From NCBI GenBank assembly GCA_003155135.1, contig PMFN01000028.1:1-64000 (forward strand): a DNA stretch of 64,000 nucleotides. Direction: 5' to 3'. Position 1 is the first letter of the stretch. Each line of letters begins with the position of its first letter. Both the position numbers and the translations under genes were made by a program. Shown here one piece after another: positions 22,847-33,383 of the stretch. This stretch comes from Acidimicrobiaceae bacterium (GTDB taxonomy: Bacteria; Actinomycetota; Acidimicrobiia; Acidimicrobiales; RAAP-2). A model generated the notes under the pieces. That model saw nothing but the letters and a program-made list of their open reading frames with translations. It was not told the origin of the DNA and did not search any database.

Positions 22847-23650
22847 GTGACCAGCGTGTTCAAGCGGATGTCCGCCATCCTGCAGGCAAAAACCAACAAG
22901 GTGCTGGACAAGGCCGAGGACCCGCGCGAGACGCTGGACCTCTCCTACGAAAAGCAGTTGGAGAGCCTCCAGAAGGTCCGTCGCAGCGTGGCCGACGTGG
23001 CGACGGCCCGCAAGCGGATCGAGCTGCAGGCCGGCCAGCTCCAAAAGCAGGCCGACAAGCTCCAGGCCCAGGCCAAGGCCGCCCTCAGCCAGAACAACGA
23101 GGAACTGGCCCGAGAGGCACTGGCCCGGCGCGCCGCGCTCGGCGAGCAGCTGGCGGACCTCCAGACCCAGCACCAGCAGGTGAGCGAGCAGGAGGAGAAG
23201 CTCGTCGAGACCTCCCAGCGGCTCCAGGCCCAGGTCGAGCAGTTCCGCACGCGCAAGGAGACCCTGAAAGCCACCTACACGGCCGCCGAGGCCCAGACCA
23301 AGGTGGGCGAGGCGGTGTCGGGGATCTCGAAGTCGATGGGCGACGCCGGCAGCACGATGCAGCGGGCCCAGGACAAGATCGCCGGCATGCAGGCGCGGGC
23401 CGGGGCGATCGACGAGCTGCTCGCCTCGGGTGCCCTTACCGACCTCAACACGCCGGTCGACGACATCCAGGCCCAGCTCGACAAGGTCTCGGCCACGTCC
23501 CAGGTCGACAACGAACTCGCGGCCCTCAAAGCCGAGATCTCGACCGGTGCGCCGGCCGCCGAGCTCCCTGGCGTCAAAGACGCCGAACTGGTCGAGGGGT
23601 CCGAGGCGCCCGCCACTGACGACGCTCCAACTGGAGGTAGCACCCACTGA
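22847..23650 (+). CDS. pspA: Phage shock protein A (PspA/IM30/Vipp1 family)
   Basis: A peripheral inner-membrane protein that forms ESCRT-III-like rods and rings and stabilises damaged membranes. 267 residues, nearly all coiled coil. FKRMSAILQAKTNKVLDKAEDP matches the N-terminal membrane-binding helix and following conserved EDP. Long heptad regions cover 30-150, and the C-terminal third is less ordered, with an acidic tail (ELVEGSEAPATDDA). It begins with GTG after GAGGAGGG and overlaps the htpX ATG by 1 bp, so it is the first gene of a three-gene stress operon. Confidence 0.9.
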   Translation: MTSVFKRMSAILQAKTNKVLDKAEDPRETLDLSYEKQLESLQKVRRSVADVATARKRIELQAGQLQKQADKLQAQAKAALSQNNEELAREALARRAALGEQLADLQTQHQQVSEQEEKLVETSQRLQAQVEQFRTRKETLKATYTAAEAQTKVGEAVSGISKSMGDAGSTMQRAQDKIAGMQARAGAIDELLASGALTDLNTPVDDIQAQLDKVSATSQVDNELAALKAEISTGAPAAELPGVKDAELVEGSEAPATDDAPTGGSTH

Positions 23651-24600
23651 TGTCCCGAGCACGCAACATCGAGAACGACCGGGGCCTGACCGCCCGCATG
23701 TTCTTGACCGGGCTGTTCCTGGTCGTCCTCTACGGCGCCTTCATCGCCGTCCTGTGGAAGATCGGCCTCTCCTTCGGTCTGATCGTCGTCATCGCCGTCG
23801 CGTTCCTCTTCGCGCAGTACTGGTTCGCCGACAAGATCGCCCTGTGGGGCATGCACGGCCGGATCGTCACCCCCGAGGAGGCGCCCGAGCTCCACGGCGC
23901 CATCGACCGGCTCTGCGCCCTCGCCGACATGCCCAAGCCGCGCGTCGCCATCGCGGACACCGACGTGCCGAACGCCTTCGCCACCGGCCGGAGCCCGAAG
24001 GCCGCCGTGGTGTGCGCCACCACCGGCCTGCTGCGCCGGCTCGACGAGCCCGAGATCGAGGCCGTGCTCGCCCACGAGCTCTCCCACGTCGCCCACCGAG
24101 ACGTCGCGATCATGACGATCGCCTCCTCGCTCGGCGTGGCGGCCGGGCTCATGACCCGAGCCGTCTTCTACGCCACGATGTTCGGCGGCGGGGGGCGGGG
24201 CGGAGGCAACAACCAGAGCGGCCAGCAGGTGGTGCTCGTCGAGATGGGCATCATGGTCGTCTCCATCGTCGTCTACGCCATCAGCTTCTTGCTGACCCGT
24301 GCCCTCTCGCGCTACCGGGAACTCGCCGCTGACCGATCCGGAGCCCTGCTGATCGGTCGACCGTCGACGCTCGCCTCGGCCCTCGTCAAGATCACCGGCG
24401 AGATGTCGCGCATCCCGACCAACGACCTGCGCAAGGCCGAGGCATTCAACGCCTTCTTCTTCACCCCGGCCATCGCCCAGCCCCGCCAGGGCGAGCGACA
24501 GGGCCTCTCGCTCGGCTCACTCTTCTCGACGCACCCGACCCTCGAGCGCCGCCTCGCGCAGCTCTCCGAGCTCGAGTCCGAGCTGAACACTCCTCGCTGA
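23650..24600 (+). CDS. htpX: HtpX-like M48 membrane metalloprotease
   Basis: A zinc endopeptidase that degrades misfolded membrane proteins. 316 residues. Two N-terminal helices (about 18-38 and 41-60) are followed by the conserved ADTDVPNAFATGRSPKAAVV. The catalytic HELSHVAHRD (H-E-x-x-H, near 140) and the third ligand Glu in YRELAADRSG follow. A Gly-rich loop and two more helices separate these. The start overlaps the pspA stop (TGATG). In actinobacteria htpX beside pspA is a known arrangement for envelope stress. Confidence 0.92.
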   Translation: MSRARNIENDRGLTARMFLTGLFLVVLYGAFIAVLWKIGLSFGLIVVIAVAFLFAQYWFADKIALWGMHGRIVTPEEAPELHGAIDRLCALADMPKPRVAIADTDVPNAFATGRSPKAAVVCATTGLLRRLDEPEIEAVLAHELSHVAHRDVAIMTIASSLGVAAGLMTRAVFYATMFGGGGRGGGNNQSGQQVVLVEMGIMVVSIVVYAISFLLTRALSRYRELAADRSGALLIGRPSTLASALVKITGEMSRIPTNDLRKAEAFNAFFFTPAIAQPRQGERQGLSLGSLFSTHPTLERRLAQLSELESELNTPR

Positions 24601-24607
24601 GCCCACG

Positions 24608-25222
24608 GTGGGCTTCCTCGATGCGCTGCGCGGACGCAGCCAGCCGGTCCGGGCGAACCTCGACGCGCTCTTCGCCCTGCCGTCGGCGGCGGTGACCTTG
24701 GAGACCGCGGCGGGGCTCGTGTCGTCAGGCAACGCCGGTATCTGCTGGAAGCCGCCGGCCTCCCAGTCCGCCGAGGACGTCCAGCGCGAGATCACCGAGC
24801 TGCTCGGGATCGGTGACGCCGGCGATGCCTCGTCGACCACCCCCGCAGCGAGCCTGCCCACCATGACCCAGCAGGAGGACAGCTACGGGTACCGCTGGCT
24901 GCTGCTCGAGGACCCCGCCATCGACGACCTGGTCACCCGCGTCCACATGGTCAACACGTCGCTCACCGAAGCGGGATGGGGTCCGCAGCTCTTGTGCTCG
25001 GTGTTCTCCTTCGTTCCCGGCCCTGAGGCGGGACCCGAGCAGAAGAGCATCTTCCTCGTCTACCTCTACAAGCGGGGCACGTTCTACCCGTTCGCCCCGC
25101 TCGGCGGCGAGAAACGCGACACCGAGAACGAGCTGCGGGTCCGCTCGGTGCTCGGCAGCGACCTCCCGGTCGAAGCGGACCTCTCCCGGTGGTTCCCCCT
25201 GTGGGACCTGCCGGTCGCCTGA
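24608..25222 (+). CDS. pspAB: PspA-associated protein PspAB
   Basis: 204 residues. The start GFLDALRGRSQPVRANLDAL, then FALPSAAVTLETA, is typical of PspAB, a soluble partner often encoded with PspA in actinobacteria. The C-terminal part has SYGYRWLLLED, VTRVHMVNTSLTEAGWGPQLL and LVYLYKRGTFYPFAPLGGEKRD, all conserved. Its biochemical role is not established. It starts with GTG 7 bp after htpX, completing the pspA-htpX-pspAB operon. Confidence 0.88.
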   Translation: MGFLDALRGRSQPVRANLDALFALPSAAVTLETAAGLVSSGNAGICWKPPASQSAEDVQREITELLGIGDAGDASSTTPAASLPTMTQQEDSYGYRWLLLEDPAIDDLVTRVHMVNTSLTEAGWGPQLLCSVFSFVPGPEAGPEQKSIFLVYLYKRGTFYPFAPLGGEKRDTENELRVRSVLGSDLPVEADLSRWFPLWDLPVA

Positions 25223-27277: not shown

Positions 27278-27757
27278 GTGAGCAGGGAGGTTTCGGGCTC
27301 CCACCAGCTCGACATCAACGACGACGGGCACTTCTCGACGGTGCTGGTGGGTATTGGTGATCTCGACACCCGTGCGATCACCGTCGCCAACGCGGGGCAC
27401 CTCAACCCGCTCATCGTGGTCGGGCCCGAATCAGGCTACGCAGCCACCAAGGTCGGTCCGCCCCTCGGCGTGGAACCGATCGCCTACAGCCCGACGACGT
27501 TCGTGCTGCCGCCAGGGTCGGCGTTCCTGGCGTTCACCGACGGACTGGTCGAGCGCCGGGGGGAGAGCATCGAGGTGGGCCTCGAGCGCCTGGAACACGC
27601 GGCAACCGCCTCGGACCCGAGCCTCGACGGCCTGCTCAGCAGGATCGTCGACGACCTCGCCCACGAGGGGTCAGAGGACGACGTCGCCATTCTGGCCTTC
27701 AGGTGGCGAAACGCCGCCGGGGCGCAAGGCAGCGACACCGGTCCGGTCCGCGGCTGA
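27278..27757 (+). pseudogene. 5'-truncated SpoIIE/RsbU-type PP2C phosphatase
   Basis: 159 codons match the second half of the PP2C-like phosphatase domain of RsbU/SpoIIE regulators: DGHFSTVLVGIGDLDTRAIT, VANAGHLNPLIVVG, VGPPLGV, FLAFTDGLVERRGESIEVGL and EDDVAILAFRW. The first conserved metal-binding motif (the family's D-x-x-GHG) and any sensor region are absent. 27200-27277 does not supply them. A catalytically active product is therefore unlikely. Confidence 0.6.
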
Positions 27758-28631: not shown

Positions 28632-28742
28632 CCGGGAACCGGTTTGCGGCGCCCGCGAGGCGGGGTCACCACGTCGCCGCGATGGACCATCGCCTCTAGT
28701 GCGAGCAGGGCGGCGCCGCCACGCTGGAGGTGGGAGGCCTTC

Positions 28743-30077
28743 ATGGAGCGCTTTAGGGACCGAAGCGATGCCGGTCGCCGCTTGGCGAGGGTGCTGATGG
28801 AGCTGAAGAACTCCGACCCCTTGATTCTTGCCTTGCCACGAGGCGGCGTCCCTGTTGCCTACGAGGTGGCCGTTGCGTTGTGCGCCCCGCTGGACATCTT
28901 GATCGTGCGCAAGCTGGGCGTGCCGTTCCAGCCGGAACTGGCAATGGGCGCCATCGGTGAGGACGAGGTGCTGGTGGTCGACGAGAGGGTTGTCGCTGAC
29001 GCGCGCATCACCGCCCCCGAGTTCTGGGCGGTCGAGTACACCGAGCGCCAGGAACTGGAGCTGCGGGTTCGCCGTTTCCGTGGTGGGCGCCCACCGTTGT
29101 CGTTGGAGCGGCGAACGGTGATCATCGTCGACGACGGCATCGCCACCGGTTCCACGGCGCGCGCCGCGTGCCAGCTCGCCCGGGCGCGAGGGGCGCAGCG
29201 GGTCATCCTGGCCGTACCGGTCGCATCGGCGACCACGCTCGAGCAACTGCGTCCCGAGGTCGACGAGCTGGTGTGCCTGAAGTCGCCGAGGTGGGCCGGG
29301 TCCGTCGGGCAGTCGTACGACGAATTCTCCCAAGTGTCCGATGAGCAGGTGGTGGCGCTCCTGTCGCACGCTGCGCAGCACGAGGCCCTCCCCACCACCG
29401 CTGCGCGTTCGCCGAGCGTCGATTGTCGGGATGACGAGGTGACGATCGAAGTCGACGGGATCCCGCTCTCGGGCCATCTCACCGTCCCCGAAGCCTCGAA
29501 GGCATTCGTGCTGTTCGCACACGGCAGCGGGAGCAGCCGCCACAGCCCGCGCAACCGATTCGTGGCCACCACGCTGAACGGTCGCGGACTGGCCACGCTG
29601 CTCTTCGACCTCCTCTCGCACGACGAAGAGGCCGAGAGAAGCAATGTCTTCGATATCGACCTGTTGGCCCAACGCCTGCTCGCGGCCACGCACTGGCTGA
29701 GGGGGGAGGCAGAGGCCGAGGGCGCCCGGTTTGGTTATTTCGGAGCGAGCACCGGTGCCGCCGCCGCACTGGTCGCGGCGGCGGAGCCGGCGGCCGGGAT
29801 CGATGCGATCGTCTCGCGCGGCGGCCGACCGGACCTGGCGGGCTCCCGCCTCGCGGCGGTCCGAGCGCCCACGCTGCTGCTGGTCGGCGGCCACGACCCC
29901 GTAGTGCTCGAGCTCAGCCGCCGGGCGCAAGCGGCCCTCACCTGCGAGAACCGCTTGGCTATCGTCCCAGGCGCCACACACCTCTTCGAGGAGCCCGGGG
30001 CCTTGGAAGCGGTGGCCGCGCAAGCCGGCGATTGGTTCACCCGATATCTGGCGCCACTGGTCGAGGCCCGCTCGTGA
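28743..30077 (+). CDS. Phosphoribosyltransferase fused to alpha/beta hydrolase
   Basis: 444 residues with two domains. Residues 1-212 are a type I phosphoribosyltransferase-like domain: LALPRGGVPVAYEVA, LIVRKLGVPFQPELAMGA and the PRPP loop VIIVDDGIATGSTA (126-139). Residues 230-440 are a dienelactone-hydrolase-like domain with the elbow GASTGAA (Ser336), GGHDP (Asp385) and ATHLFEEPG (His413). The ATG at 28743 has GGGAGG 7 nt upstream. The erythromycin-esterase-family gene follows 19 bp later. This pairing recurs in bacteria, but its pathway is unknown to me. Confidence 0.85.
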   Translation: MERFRDRSDAGRRLARVLMELKNSDPLILALPRGGVPVAYEVAVALCAPLDILIVRKLGVPFQPELAMGAIGEDEVLVVDERVVADARITAPEFWAVEYTERQELELRVRRFRGGRPPLSLERRTVIIVDDGIATGSTARAACQLARARGAQRVILAVPVASATTLEQLRPEVDELVCLKSPRWAGSVGQSYDEFSQVSDEQVVALLSHAAQHEALPTTAARSPSVDCRDDEVTIEVDGIPLSGHLTVPEASKAFVLFAHGSGSSRHSPRNRFVATTLNGRGLATLLFDLLSHDEEAERSNVFDIDLLAQRLLAATHWLRGEAEAEGARFGYFGASTGAAAALVAAAEPAAGIDAIVSRGGRPDLAGSRLAAVRAPTLLLVGGHDPVVLELSRRAQAALTCENRLAIVPGATHLFEEPGALEAVAAQAGDWFTRYLAPLVEARS

Positions 30078-30096
30078 TCGGCCACGCGGGCCGGCA

Positions 30097-31473
30097 ATGT
30101 CCGGTGACCGGTCCGGTGCTGACGTGGAACCCCAGCCGGTGACGTTCGCGCCCGAGGGACCAGTCGACTTGTCCACCGCCGGGCTCGTTCCCTTGACCGG
30201 TGCCGAGGACGATTACGATCAGTTGCTCCGCGCGGTCGGCGACCGGCGGTTCGTCCTCCTCGGTGAAGCGAGCCACGGGACCCACGACTTCTACCGCGAG
30301 CGTGCCAGGATCACCCAGCGCCTCATCGTCGAGAAGGGCTTCAGCGCCGTCGCCGTCGAGGCCGACTGGCCCGACGCCTACCGGGTCAACCGCTACGTGC
30401 TGGGCCAGTCGGCCGATGCCGACGCCACGGCCGCGCTGGCGGACTTCCGGCGATTCCCGGGTTGGATGTGGCGCAACACCGACATCGCCGCATTCATCGG
30501 TTGGCTCAGGTCGTACAACGACGCGTGCGACGGACCCCTTCGCCAGGTTCGCTTCTACGGACTCGACCTCTACAGCCTCCGTGCCTCCATGGAGGCGGTG
30601 GTGGCGTACCTCGACGCCAACGACGCCGCCGCCGCTGCGCGTGCCCGGGACCGGTTCAGCTGCTTCGACCACGTGGGGGGCGAGGGTCCCGACTACGGCA
30701 ACGCCGTCCGGCTCGATCTCACCGTCCCCTGCGAGCGCGAGGTGATCGCCGAGCTGGTGGACCTGCGCCAGCACGCGGCCGCCCTGATGGCCAGCGACGG
30801 TCAGGCAGCCGCGGACGAGTACTTCGTGGCCGAGCAGAACGCTCGAGTCATCCACAACGCCGAGCGCTACTACCGGGAGATGTACCTGGGCGCGGTGTCG
30901 TCGTGGAACCTGCGCGACGAGCACATGGCAGCGACACTGGCAAACCTCGCCTCCCACCTCGACCAGCTGCGTGGTCGGTCGAAGATCGTGGTCTGGGAGC
31001 ACAACTCGCATGTGGGCGACGCCCGTGCCACTGAGCTCGGTCAGGCGGGCGAGTTCAACGTGGGCCAGCTGGTGCGGACCGCCTGGGGGGAGGACTGCCT
31101 GCTGGTCGGATTCACCACCGACCACGGCCGGGTGACCGCGGCGTCCGAGTGGGGCGGCCCGGCCGAGCGAAAACACGTGCGACCCGCACTCGAGGGCAGC
31201 TACGAGAAGCTCTTCCACCAGGCACCGGTGAAAAGCTTCTCGATGTTCCTTGACCCCGCGCACGACGCGCTGAGCGGTCCGCTGCTCGAGAGGGCCATCG
31301 GGGTGATCTACCGCCCGGAGACAGAGCGCGCCAGCCACTGGTTCCACGCCCGCCTGGCCGCGCAGTTCGACGCGATTGTCCACATCGATCGGACGACGGC
31401 GGTCGAACCGCTGGACCGGACCTCGTTCTGGGACGAAGGCGAACCCCCCGAGACGTACCCGACCGGGCTCTGA
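30097..31473 (+). CDS. Erythromycin esterase-family protein
   Basis: 458 residues. The EreA/SucC-like motifs are present: VLLGEASHGTHDFYRERARI (Glu57, His60, His63), AVEADWPDAYRVNRYV, VRFYGLDLYSL, and IVVWEHNSHVGDARATE with a conserved Glu-His. Ere-fold enzymes hydrolyse ester or lactone bonds, but most members, including those beside PRTase/DLH fusions, are not shown to act on macrolides. No resistance function is inferred. It is probably cotranscribed with the upstream fusion. Confidence 0.85.
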   Translation: MSGDRSGADVEPQPVTFAPEGPVDLSTAGLVPLTGAEDDYDQLLRAVGDRRFVLLGEASHGTHDFYRERARITQRLIVEKGFSAVAVEADWPDAYRVNRYVLGQSADADATAALADFRRFPGWMWRNTDIAAFIGWLRSYNDACDGPLRQVRFYGLDLYSLRASMEAVVAYLDANDAAAAARARDRFSCFDHVGGEGPDYGNAVRLDLTVPCEREVIAELVDLRQHAAALMASDGQAAADEYFVAEQNARVIHNAERYYREMYLGAVSSWNLRDEHMAATLANLASHLDQLRGRSKIVVWEHNSHVGDARATELGQAGEFNVGQLVRTAWGEDCLLVGFTTDHGRVTAASEWGGPAERKHVRPALEGSYEKLFHQAPVKSFSMFLDPAHDALSGPLLERAIGVIYRPETERASHWFHARLAAQFDAIVHIDRTTAVEPLDRTSFWDEGEPPETYPTGL

Positions 31474-31687: not shown

Positions 31688-32689
31688 TCAAGGCCGCGGC
31701 GACAATCCCTCGGCCCGACGCACGAGTATGCGCGCCAGGGTCGTCGGGTGACCGAAGAGACCTGGCAGCCCGCCGCTGTGCAACAGGATCGTCCGCTCGC
31801 CCGGCCGGATCTGACCGTCATCGATGGCGCTCACCAGGCCGGCGAGGGCGCGTCCGGTGTAGATGGGGTCGAGGACGATCCCCTCGGTCCCCGCCGCCAG
31901 CTGCAGCGCAGCCATCACCGGCTCGGTGAGTTCGCCATAGCCGGCGCCCACGTGGTCGAGTCGGATGCTGAGGCGCTCGGCACCCACCGGCGCGCCGCCC
32001 AGCCCTCCCACCAGCTCGGCCACCTTGGCCGCCGGCCGACTGATGGCACCACAGTTGACCCCGAGCACCTTGCCTTCGCCGAGCGCGTACACCAGCCCGG
32101 CCATGGTGCCGCCCGAGCCGAGGGCGGTGACGACCGTCGTCAGGTCCGGTGCTTGCGCCAAGAGTTCGCGACCACAATCGACGTAGCCACGAGCCCCGAG
32201 CACATTCGAGCCCCCGTAGGGGAAGAGCACCGGGGTTGCGCCTCGCTCCCGGAGCTGTTCGGTGACACTGCGAGCGGCGGCGTCGAGGTCTTCGTCGTCG
32301 ACGGCGCCCGCCCAGACGATGGAGGCGCCGAAGAGGCCGTCGAGCGCAAGGTTGCCCCCGAGCGGGCCGTCAACTGCGGAGCTCGCCAGGACCAGGACGA
32401 CATCGAGGCCCACTCTCGCCCCAGCGGCGGCGGTCAGCCGCGCGAAGTTGCTCTGGCGCGCGCCGCTGGTCACCAAGGTGTCGGCTCCGTCAGCGAGTGC
32501 CGCACCGCAGAGCAGCTCAAGCTTGCGCACCTTGTTGCCGCCACCGCCCAGGCCGCTGAGATCGTCCCGCTTGATCCACAGGTCCTCGGGACCGAGGCCG
32601 AGCGAGCAGCCCAGTCGGGAGGCCTTCTCGAGCGGGGTCGGCCAGCTGCCGAGCGGGACACGCCCGATGGGGAGGGGCTGGGCGCTCAA
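31688..32689 (-). CDS. D-cysteine desulfhydrase / ACC deaminase-like PLP enzyme
   Basis: 333 residues of fold-type II PLP family. LWIKRDDLSGLGGGGNKVRK holds the Schiff-base Lys in the G-G-N-K-x-R-K motif. TLVTSGARQSNFARLTAAAG is the substrate loop, FPYGGSNVLGARGYVDC the middle block, and a Gly-rich ALGSGGTMAGLVYALG binds the PLP phosphate. Whether it acts on D-cysteine or 1-aminocyclopropane carboxylate is not decided. The TTG at 32689 with GAGG upstream is preferred; the end of the CPT gene lies 10 bp away. It is last in a four-gene leftward run. Confidence 0.8.
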   Translation of the reverse strand: MSAQPLPIGRVPLGSWPTPLEKASRLGCSLGLGPEDLWIKRDDLSGLGGGGNKVRKLELLCGAALADGADTLVTSGARQSNFARLTAAAGARVGLDVVLVLASSAVDGPLGGNLALDGLFGASIVWAGAVDDEDLDAAARSVTEQLRERGATPVLFPYGGSNVLGARGYVDCGRELLAQAPDLTTVVTALGSGGTMAGLVYALGEGKVLGVNCGAISRPAAKVAELVGGLGGAPVGAERLSIRLDHVGAGYGELTEPVMAALQLAAGTEGIVLDPIYTGRALAGLVSAIDDGQIRPGERTILLHSGGLPGLFGHPTTLARILVRRAEGLSPRP

Positions 32690-32699
32690 TCGGGGATCC

Positions 32700-33383
32700 T
32701 CAGCTCTCCCATGGGGCGCTCTGACCTGACCGCCCGCTGGCGAACGCCGAAGGCACGCTGGGCTCAAGCGGCCCGGTCGACCGCCGCAGTCCCCCGATGC
32801 TCCACCGCTCTTCGAGCGCCTGGGCGATGGCCGCCGCCGATTGCACGACGTCGAGGACGCCGACGTCGATTTGCAGGTCATAGTGGACGCCCTCGTGCAC
32901 CGAGGAAGCTTGCTGGCGGGCCATACCCGCCACCCGATCGCCGCGTGCTTCCTCCCGGGCGCCGGCGATCTCCGGCCCACAGCGCAGGCCCACCCAGTGC
33001 GTCTCGTTGTCGCCGAGCGCCTCCCGCCAACGCAGCTGGTCGGTCGCAGCACCGAGCAGGACCTCGTCGAGGAGGACGTCGGCCCCTCCCGCCACCAGGG
33101 TCGCCACCGCCAGCTGGTACTGCGCGTAGAGGCCGAGGAACCGCGCACCCCGGGTGACCACGCCGTCCTCGAACACGATGCCCTCGGCATCCTCAAACAT
33201 CGCCGGAGGCAGTGTCCAGAGAAACACGTCGATGCCGAGCAGGAGCCAGGTCCCATCGAGCGAGGACTGCAGCGTGCGGCCGATCGTCGTCTTTCCCGCA
33301 CCCGAACCGCCGTTGAGCACGACCAGGTGCCCTCCCCGGGCGTGGGTGCGTGGCACCACCGGGAGGCTACTGCCCGCCGGCAT
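32700..33383 (-). CDS. Chloramphenicol phosphotransferase-like kinase
   Basis: 227 residues of the CPT P-loop family. The Walker A is LVVLNGGSGAGKTTIGRTLQ. FLGLYAQYQLAVATLVAGGADVLLDEV is the lid and Walker-B-like region, and GLRCGPEIAGAREEARGDRVAGMARQQ ending in VHEGVHYDL matches the C-terminal signature of CPT from Streptomyces venezuelae. Most family members have unknown small-molecule substrates, so an antibiotic role is only a possibility. The tail of about 30 Ser/Pro-rich residues is unusual. Confidence 0.75.
   Translation of the reverse strand: MPAGSSLPVVPRTHARGGHLVVLNGGSGAGKTTIGRTLQSSLDGTWLLLGIDVFLWTLPPAMFEDAEGIVFEDGVVTRGARFLGLYAQYQLAVATLVAGGADVLLDEVLLGAATDQLRWREALGDNETHWVGLRCGPEIAGAREEARGDRVAGMARQQASSVHEGVHYDLQIDVGVLDVVQSAAAIAQALEERWSIGGLRRSTGPLEPSVPSAFASGRSGQSAPWES

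Follow-up and report, generated by a model that had tools for sequence, protein, structure and literature searches.

A phosphoribosyltransferase-hydrolase fusion followed by an Ere-family gene in an acidimicrobial genome: a candidate stress-survival module

Introduction

Among described proteins, close counterparts of the gene pair analyzed here come from Mycobacterium tuberculosis, in which we take Rv0571c to be a phosphoribosyltransferase (PRT)-hydrolase fusion, its block presumably to hold no gene of the erythromycin esterase (Ere) family, and Rv0574c to be CapA-like. The available excerpts of one report list Rv0571c among the genes of the DosR block Rv0569-Rv0574c, label it a putative phosphoribosyltransferase, place Rv2030c, Rv0574c and Rv2631 (RtcB) likewise in DosR blocks, and call the DosR-regulon proteins Rv0571c and Rv2030c uncharacterised (PMC5309233). 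Rv2030c is a single protein with both a PRT and an Ere domain and belongs to the hypoxia-induced HspX operon (accessible part of PMC4410610); Rv0571c changed less than two-fold in one expression study and was thus excluded from its clustering (PMC2275270, in excerpt). We liken these M. tuberculosis proteins to the pair by description, and architectures of both types are seen in its relatives.

Single-domain relatives also exist. The 'dienelactone hydrolase' 2O2G from Anabaena is a 223-residue chain without a PRT domain, and we know of no functional test of it. TT1426 of Thermus (1WD5) is a 208-residue PRT chain without a hydrolase, whose Arg32 and Lys56 are thought to bind pyrophosphate (PMC2427199, partial text). 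For the Ere family (PF05139), the accessible part of PMC7979712 gives E47, H50, E78, R261 and H289 as the catalytic residues of EreC, and describes the solved relatives BcR135/136 as implicated in succinoglycan biosynthesis. In the literature that we searched, no paper brings PRT, Ere and dienelactone hydrolase together, and the relatives' literature, as far as its available sections go, names no substrate, in agreement with a first-pass annotation of the pair that knew of none.

Here we analyze such a pair in a window of 64,000 nucleotides, i.e., positions 1 to 64,000 of contig PMFN01000028.1 from an Acidimicrobiaceae bacterium (GCA_003155135.1). The pair is one more member of a known, functionally uncharacterised set that is widespread in bacteria.

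Results

A PRT-hydrolase fusion with conserved active-site residues

The first gene of the pair (28743-30077, plus strand) is one ORF of 444 aa with an ATG start, upstream of which GGGAGG (28732-28737) is a candidate ribosome site that could serve it. Pfam matches to Pribosyltran (PF00156; 53.8 bits, residues 12-179), Hydrolase_4 (33.7 bits, 252-357) and DLH (23.0 bits, 308-431, passing the cut-off of 21), together with the alignments to 1WD5 and 2O2G, bear out the first-pass description of a PRPP-binding domain joined to an alpha/beta hydrolase in a single gene. Residues 3-208 (28749-29366, plus strand) align with the whole PRT domain of TT1426 (E 5e-36; Foldseek rank 2), and R33 and K57 fall on its Arg32 and Lys56, R33 opening the pyrophosphate loop R33-G34-G35 (28839-28847, plus strand). 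The PRPP-binding loop VDDGIATGST (residues 129-138; 29127-29156, plus strand) lies within the stretch IVDDGIATGST; its residues are intact, as had been claimed, although the 'P-loop' of that claim is a PRPP-binding loop and not a Walker-A P-loop. Judged by sequence, with its fold, two acidic residues plus TG.T, and Arg/Lys pair all present, the domain is a type I phosphoribosyltransferase of the TT1426 kind; the fusion, unlike TT1426, carries a hydrolase as well.

Residues 232-436 (29436-30050, plus strand) align with 2O2G over the whole hydrolase domain (E 2.5e-62). On the strength of this alignment and of conservation, the domain is an alpha/beta serine hydrolase with the predicted Ser-Asp-His triad S336/D385/H413, nearly invariant and as first annotated. 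Classical dienelactone hydrolases use a cysteine nucleophile; position 336 is serine in 85 of 86 proteins, and we rejected that assignment.

To define conservation, we used 86 aligned fusions, i.e., the window's and those of 85 of 93 loci in which a simple gene caller returned a single ORF. The 93 loci, window excluded, comprise 80 named loci from an alignment-based contig search (the best 80 of 556) and 13 from a survey of the phylum; the eight outside the alignment are L122, for which the gene caller erred, and seven that carry PRT and hydrolase on two neighbouring ORFs. Among the PRPP residues, D130 is present in 86/86 proteins and D131, T135 and G136 in 85/86 each; the pyrophosphate residues R33 and K57 are kept in 85/86 each, S336 in 85/86, and D385 and H413 in 86/86. 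L058 is the only exception for the PRPP residues, and L133 the only one for the triad. It had been stated at the outset that the annotation would suffer if most homologues lacked the PRPP residues; we looked for this, and one protein in 86 deviates. That protein (L058:8288-9628) has lost its PRPP and pyrophosphate residues, keeps the hydrolase triad, and has a PRPP synthetase gene directly downstream of it. Separately, L122:7425-12946, from Mycobacterium sp. SM1, holds two PRT-hydrolase copies in tandem.

The predicted structure of the fusion (mean pLDDT 88.1, pTM 0.59) is confident within the domains, not as a whole, and residues 215-227 (29385-29423, plus strand) form a linker predicted to be disordered (pLDDT < 50). 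The first-pass annotation had read the fusion as a substrate channel. Our data do not support this proposal, given a linker with predicted disorder and domains that also exist as proteins of their own; nor do the pTM of 0.59, the two-ORF loci and a varied gene order lend it support.

The downstream gene encodes an Ere-superfamily protein

A 19 bp gap (30078-30096), as first reported, separates the fusion from an ORF of 458 aa with an ATG start (30097-31473, plus strand). Its product matches Erythro_esteras (PF05139) over the full length (419.6 bits) and 2QGM with an E of 4e-18. All 17 Ere proteins that we aligned share E57, H60, E88, R273 and H302; the first three align with E47, H50 and E78 of EreC, and the last two with its R261 and H289, though by way of a second segment that matches weakly, which makes that part less certain. 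From profile and E/H/E/R/H set, the protein belongs by sequence to the Ere superfamily, sharing family and catalytic residues with EreC and BcR135/136. It differs from them in scoring far below the NCBIfam macrolide-esterase cut-offs (EreB 54.8 bits against 750; EreD 20.5 against 800).

Ere is an optional but genuine partner

Across 248 genomes of the window's order, 17 had an Ere match, the window's own included, and in 11 of these 17 a PRT match, a hydrolase match or both lay no more than 2 kb from the Ere gene, the hydrolase alone in two cases (G311 and G354). If genes were placed at random in genomes of 2-5 Mb, simple arithmetic would predict such proximity with a chance of ~1% or less per genome, and the pairing exceeds chance; the association of fusion and Ere proposed by the first-pass annotation is thus real. 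The remaining six comprise two fusions of Ere to protein-L-isoaspartate methyltransferase (PIMT; G294, and G391, cut at a contig end) and four genomes with neither partner (G520, G508, G365 at a contig end, and G480 with a distant match). In the phylum survey, which overlaps that of the order in some genomes (G000, G123 and G294 among the Ere-bearing ones), 296 genomes yielded 24 full-length Ere matches (E ≤ 1e-60), i.e., 10 linked to PRT (7 of them PRT-Ere single genes), 2 linked to PIMT (L074, and L075 with only the PIMT end in frame) and 12 without either partner. At E ≤ 0.001, 198 of these 296 genomes matched the PRT or the hydrolase, ~30 of them only weakly.

Seen from the fusion side, the picture differs. 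Ere is adjacent in 7 of the 93 fusion loci (window left out, the 80 named loci being the best 80 of 556, and some loci cut by contig ends), and L105, where it lies 7.6 kb away, is counted among the 86 non-adjacent ones. Ere falls within 200 bp in 2 of 14 fusion-spanning phylum matches and 6 of 80 named loci (the best 80 of 556), which without the window makes the 7 of 93, and within 2 kb in 4 of 26 fusion-spanning matches in the order. Frequent separation of the two genes, which had been foreseen as counting against the annotation, is hence found when starting from the fusion, but from the Ere side the linkage holds (11/17 and 10/24). Given 7/93 (best 80 of 556 plus 13) in one direction and 11/17 and 10/24 in the other, Ere prefers PRT/hydrolase company and the fusion mostly occurs without Ere, which makes Ere an optional but genuine partner.

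The three domains recur in several arrangements

PRT and hydrolase are encoded as two genes in Nostoc (L006) and Haladaptatus (L009), and as two ORFs in 7 of 93 loci (including the best 80 of 556, and selected for matching both domains); the fusion itself is also found in Rhodococcus. Three separate adjacent genes occur in Sphingobium (L007), Novosphingobium (L008) and G123, and gene order varies, being Ere-hydrolase-PRT in the first two and hydrolase-PRT in L009. Single-gene triple fusions were found in Rhizobium (881 aa), Salipiger (883 aa) and an uncultured proteobacterium (862 aa), a Pfam domain scan having been run on one triple fusion; five plasmid records in PLSDB (four Rhizobium, one Salipiger) cover the whole length of the triple fusion, either in a single piece or in two. 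The PRT-Ere fusion is one form of the module (7 of 24 full-length Ere matches in the phylum) and has the architecture of Rv2030c, where Ere is fused directly to PRT without a hydrolase, whereas the window has a separate Ere gene behind a PRT-hydrolase fusion. In Deinococcus deserti, a published table (PMC2669436, in excerpt) lists Ere and PRT genes with the neighbouring tags Deide_2p00990 and Deide_2p01000.

In a 35-row Ere tree, the PRT-Ere fusions formed one group (support 100/97), and the other linkages lay elsewhere: the window with L142 and L160; L004/L005 and L007/L008; L103/L107/L149; and L154. The label linked or alone requires 6 changes (gains or losses), at least 4 of which are forced by well-supported branches. 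Because several rows were found through fusion or plasmid searches, the tree shows repeated linkage, not frequency.

A related Ere domain is also fused behind PIMT on plasmids of alphaproteobacteria and in actinobacteria that belong to the window's order (L165:7356-9314, L166:7302-9314, L167:7545-9569, L168:7332-9323, L074:7505-9634, L174:1-1863), i.e., with an N-terminal PIMT in place of the window's PRT-hydrolase partner. PIMT repairs isoaspartate in proteins, so these fusions suggest damage repair. The literature on isoaspartate and Ere that we searched described no PIMT-Ere fusion; a graspetide paper that surfaced contains none in its accessible text.

Fusion relatives sit among stress and dormancy genes

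We ran the neighbourhood survey of fusion and Ere proteins that the first-pass annotation had proposed, and found repeated Ere linkage and stress/dormancy neighbours. Counts were taken for 93 loci (including the best 80 of 556) at 0-5 kb ("near", 0.87 Mb) and 5-10 kb ("far", 0.72 Mb), with families named from the Pfam matches of representatives. In these 93 loci (best 80 of 556 included), near and far counts were 16 and 6 for USP, 13 and 0 for Rv2632c-like, 12 and 2 for CapA-like (plus L115, where the CapA gene touches the fusion), 7 and 2 for RtcB, 4 and 0 for archease, 7 and 0 for PolX, 6 and 3 for CBS, 3 and 0 for PRPP synthetase, and 5 and 0 for Ere, the last missing L154 (same gene) and L160 (not called). 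Since families were picked for recurring near the fusion, near stretches were longer, and related Streptomyces loci share synteny that inflates some counts, these figures are descriptive and not an unbiased test. PRPP synthetase overlaps the fusion end by 4 bp in Rhodococcus opacus (L002), comes immediately after the fusion in L058, and is no more than 2.3 kb away in L124 and L055. Genes for archease and the RNA ligase RtcB occur close to the fusion in Mycolicibacterium agri (L088:10497-12323), an actinobacterium (L051) and an acidimicrobial genome (L115). Overall, a good part of the fusion relatives sit among stress and dormancy genes.

In the window itself, genes near the pair encode an M48 peptidase, PspAB, part of a SpoIIE-type phosphatase and a tyrosine phosphatase. 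The M48 peptidase stands beside the PspA-associated PspAB (23650-25222); these two, 3.5 kb ahead of the fusion on its upstream side, may form an envelope-stress pair. The SpoIIE-type phosphatase ORF (27278-27757) covers profile positions 55-192, its N-terminal part apparently missing or frameshifted, and on the minus strand a chloramphenicol-phosphotransferase-like (CPT) ORF adjoins a PLP-dependent-enzyme (PALP) ORF (31691-33383). No RtcB match was found in the window's genome, nor an Rv2632c-like one, in a search in which no control matched either. Rv0571c lies in a DosR block; the window showed no DosR-like box with ≤2 mismatches to a mycobacterial palindrome, but another organism may use another motif.

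Neither the fusion nor the Ere protein matched PHROGs, a scan of IMG/VR using two short peptide patterns yielded no confirmed relative, and neither did a genome-contig search with a single fusion protein as query. PADLOC returned only ShosT for the fusion (20.2 bits, over the PRPP loop), nothing for Ere or a Rhizobium triple fusion, and mad2 for a Bradyrhizobium PIMT-Ere protein (80 bits, over the methyltransferase part). Given these results, a phage or defence role was set aside.

Discussion

What the alignments and surveys establish is a PRT with intact PRPP and pyrophosphate residues tethered to an intact Ser-hydrolase, both repeatedly found in linkage with an Ere-type esterase whose catalytic residues are conserved. 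PRPP use, esterase chemistry and a shared pathway are what we infer from the conserved residues and the linkage. The reading we prefer, with confidence that is about evenly balanced, is that the two genes encode three enzyme domains that work as a metabolic module for stress survival, in the salvage or repair of a damaged or acyl-modified metabolite. The PRT would transfer phosphoribose from PRPP to a heterocyclic acceptor, or release it in reverse, and the two hydrolases, acting either ahead of the PRT step or following it, would hydrolyse an ester, lactone or acyl group of that compound, so that non-growing cells could salvage or clear it; our guess is that the metabolite is nucleobase-like. 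The enzymes would be neighbours in one pathway, flexibly tethered or separate, with no rigid channel. Active-site conservation, Ere linkage, triple fusions, PRPP synthetase and stress neighbours, and the DosR blocks argue for such a module. Against it stand the loci with non-adjacent Ere (86/93) and the rarity of PRPP synthetase within 5 kb (3/93; both counts including the best 80 of 556), as well as L058, which lies beside a PRPP synthetase without PRPP residues, a window genome that gave neither an RtcB nor an Rv2632c-like match (no control matching in the latter search), and a window with no match to the mycobacterial DosR palindrome. The less than two-fold change of Rv0571c (PMC2275270, in excerpt) is also at odds with a simple dormancy story.

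Other explanations can be weighed on the same evidence. The PRT could sense PRPP and turn the hydrolase tethered to it on or off with nucleotide status, transferring no phosphoribose. PRT folds can act in this way, as in PyrR and PurR, and both the few loci with PRPP synthetase neighbours and L058, with its hydrolase kept and its PRPP residues lost, would fit; we nevertheless consider a sensor unlikely, given the conservation of the pyrophosphate-binding R33 and K57 (85/86 each) and the occurrence of PRT and hydrolase as separate adjacent genes (7/93, including the best 80 of 556; L006-L009). It is similarly improbable that the three genes are united only by their stress regulon and island and act on different substrates: stress islands do collect unrelated genes, and Ere is optional beside the fusion (7/93, best 80 of 556 included), but shared regulation alone can hardly account for triple fusions that fall in separate parts of the Ere tree, or for the PRT-Ere fusions.

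Inactivation of a macrolide or other antibiotic, with Ere cleaving the lactone and the fusion modifying the drug, is suggested by PF05139 membership and the conserved Ere catalytic residues. We regard it as very improbable, however, in view of scores far under the EreB (54.8 bits against 750) and EreD (20.5 against 800) cut-offs, recurrent identified neighbours that are stress and repair genes, and relatives (BcR135/136) implicated in succinoglycan biosynthesis (PMC7979712, accessible part). The PIMT-Ere fusions likewise point to damage repair, not antibiotic resistance.

The salvage or repair module could be part of something broader. A doubtful but consequential extension is that PRT, hydrolase and Ere make up a single conserved pathway by which non-growing cells carry out PRPP-dependent repair or salvage, and in which Ere, as the hydrolytic partner common to both, swaps between PRT-hydrolase and the protein-repair methyltransferase PIMT. 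If this were true, solving the pathway would give the function of the DosR-regulon proteins Rv0571c and Rv2030c at once. The recurrent fusions tell which enzymes to assay together, and the role of these dormancy genes would thereby become directly testable.
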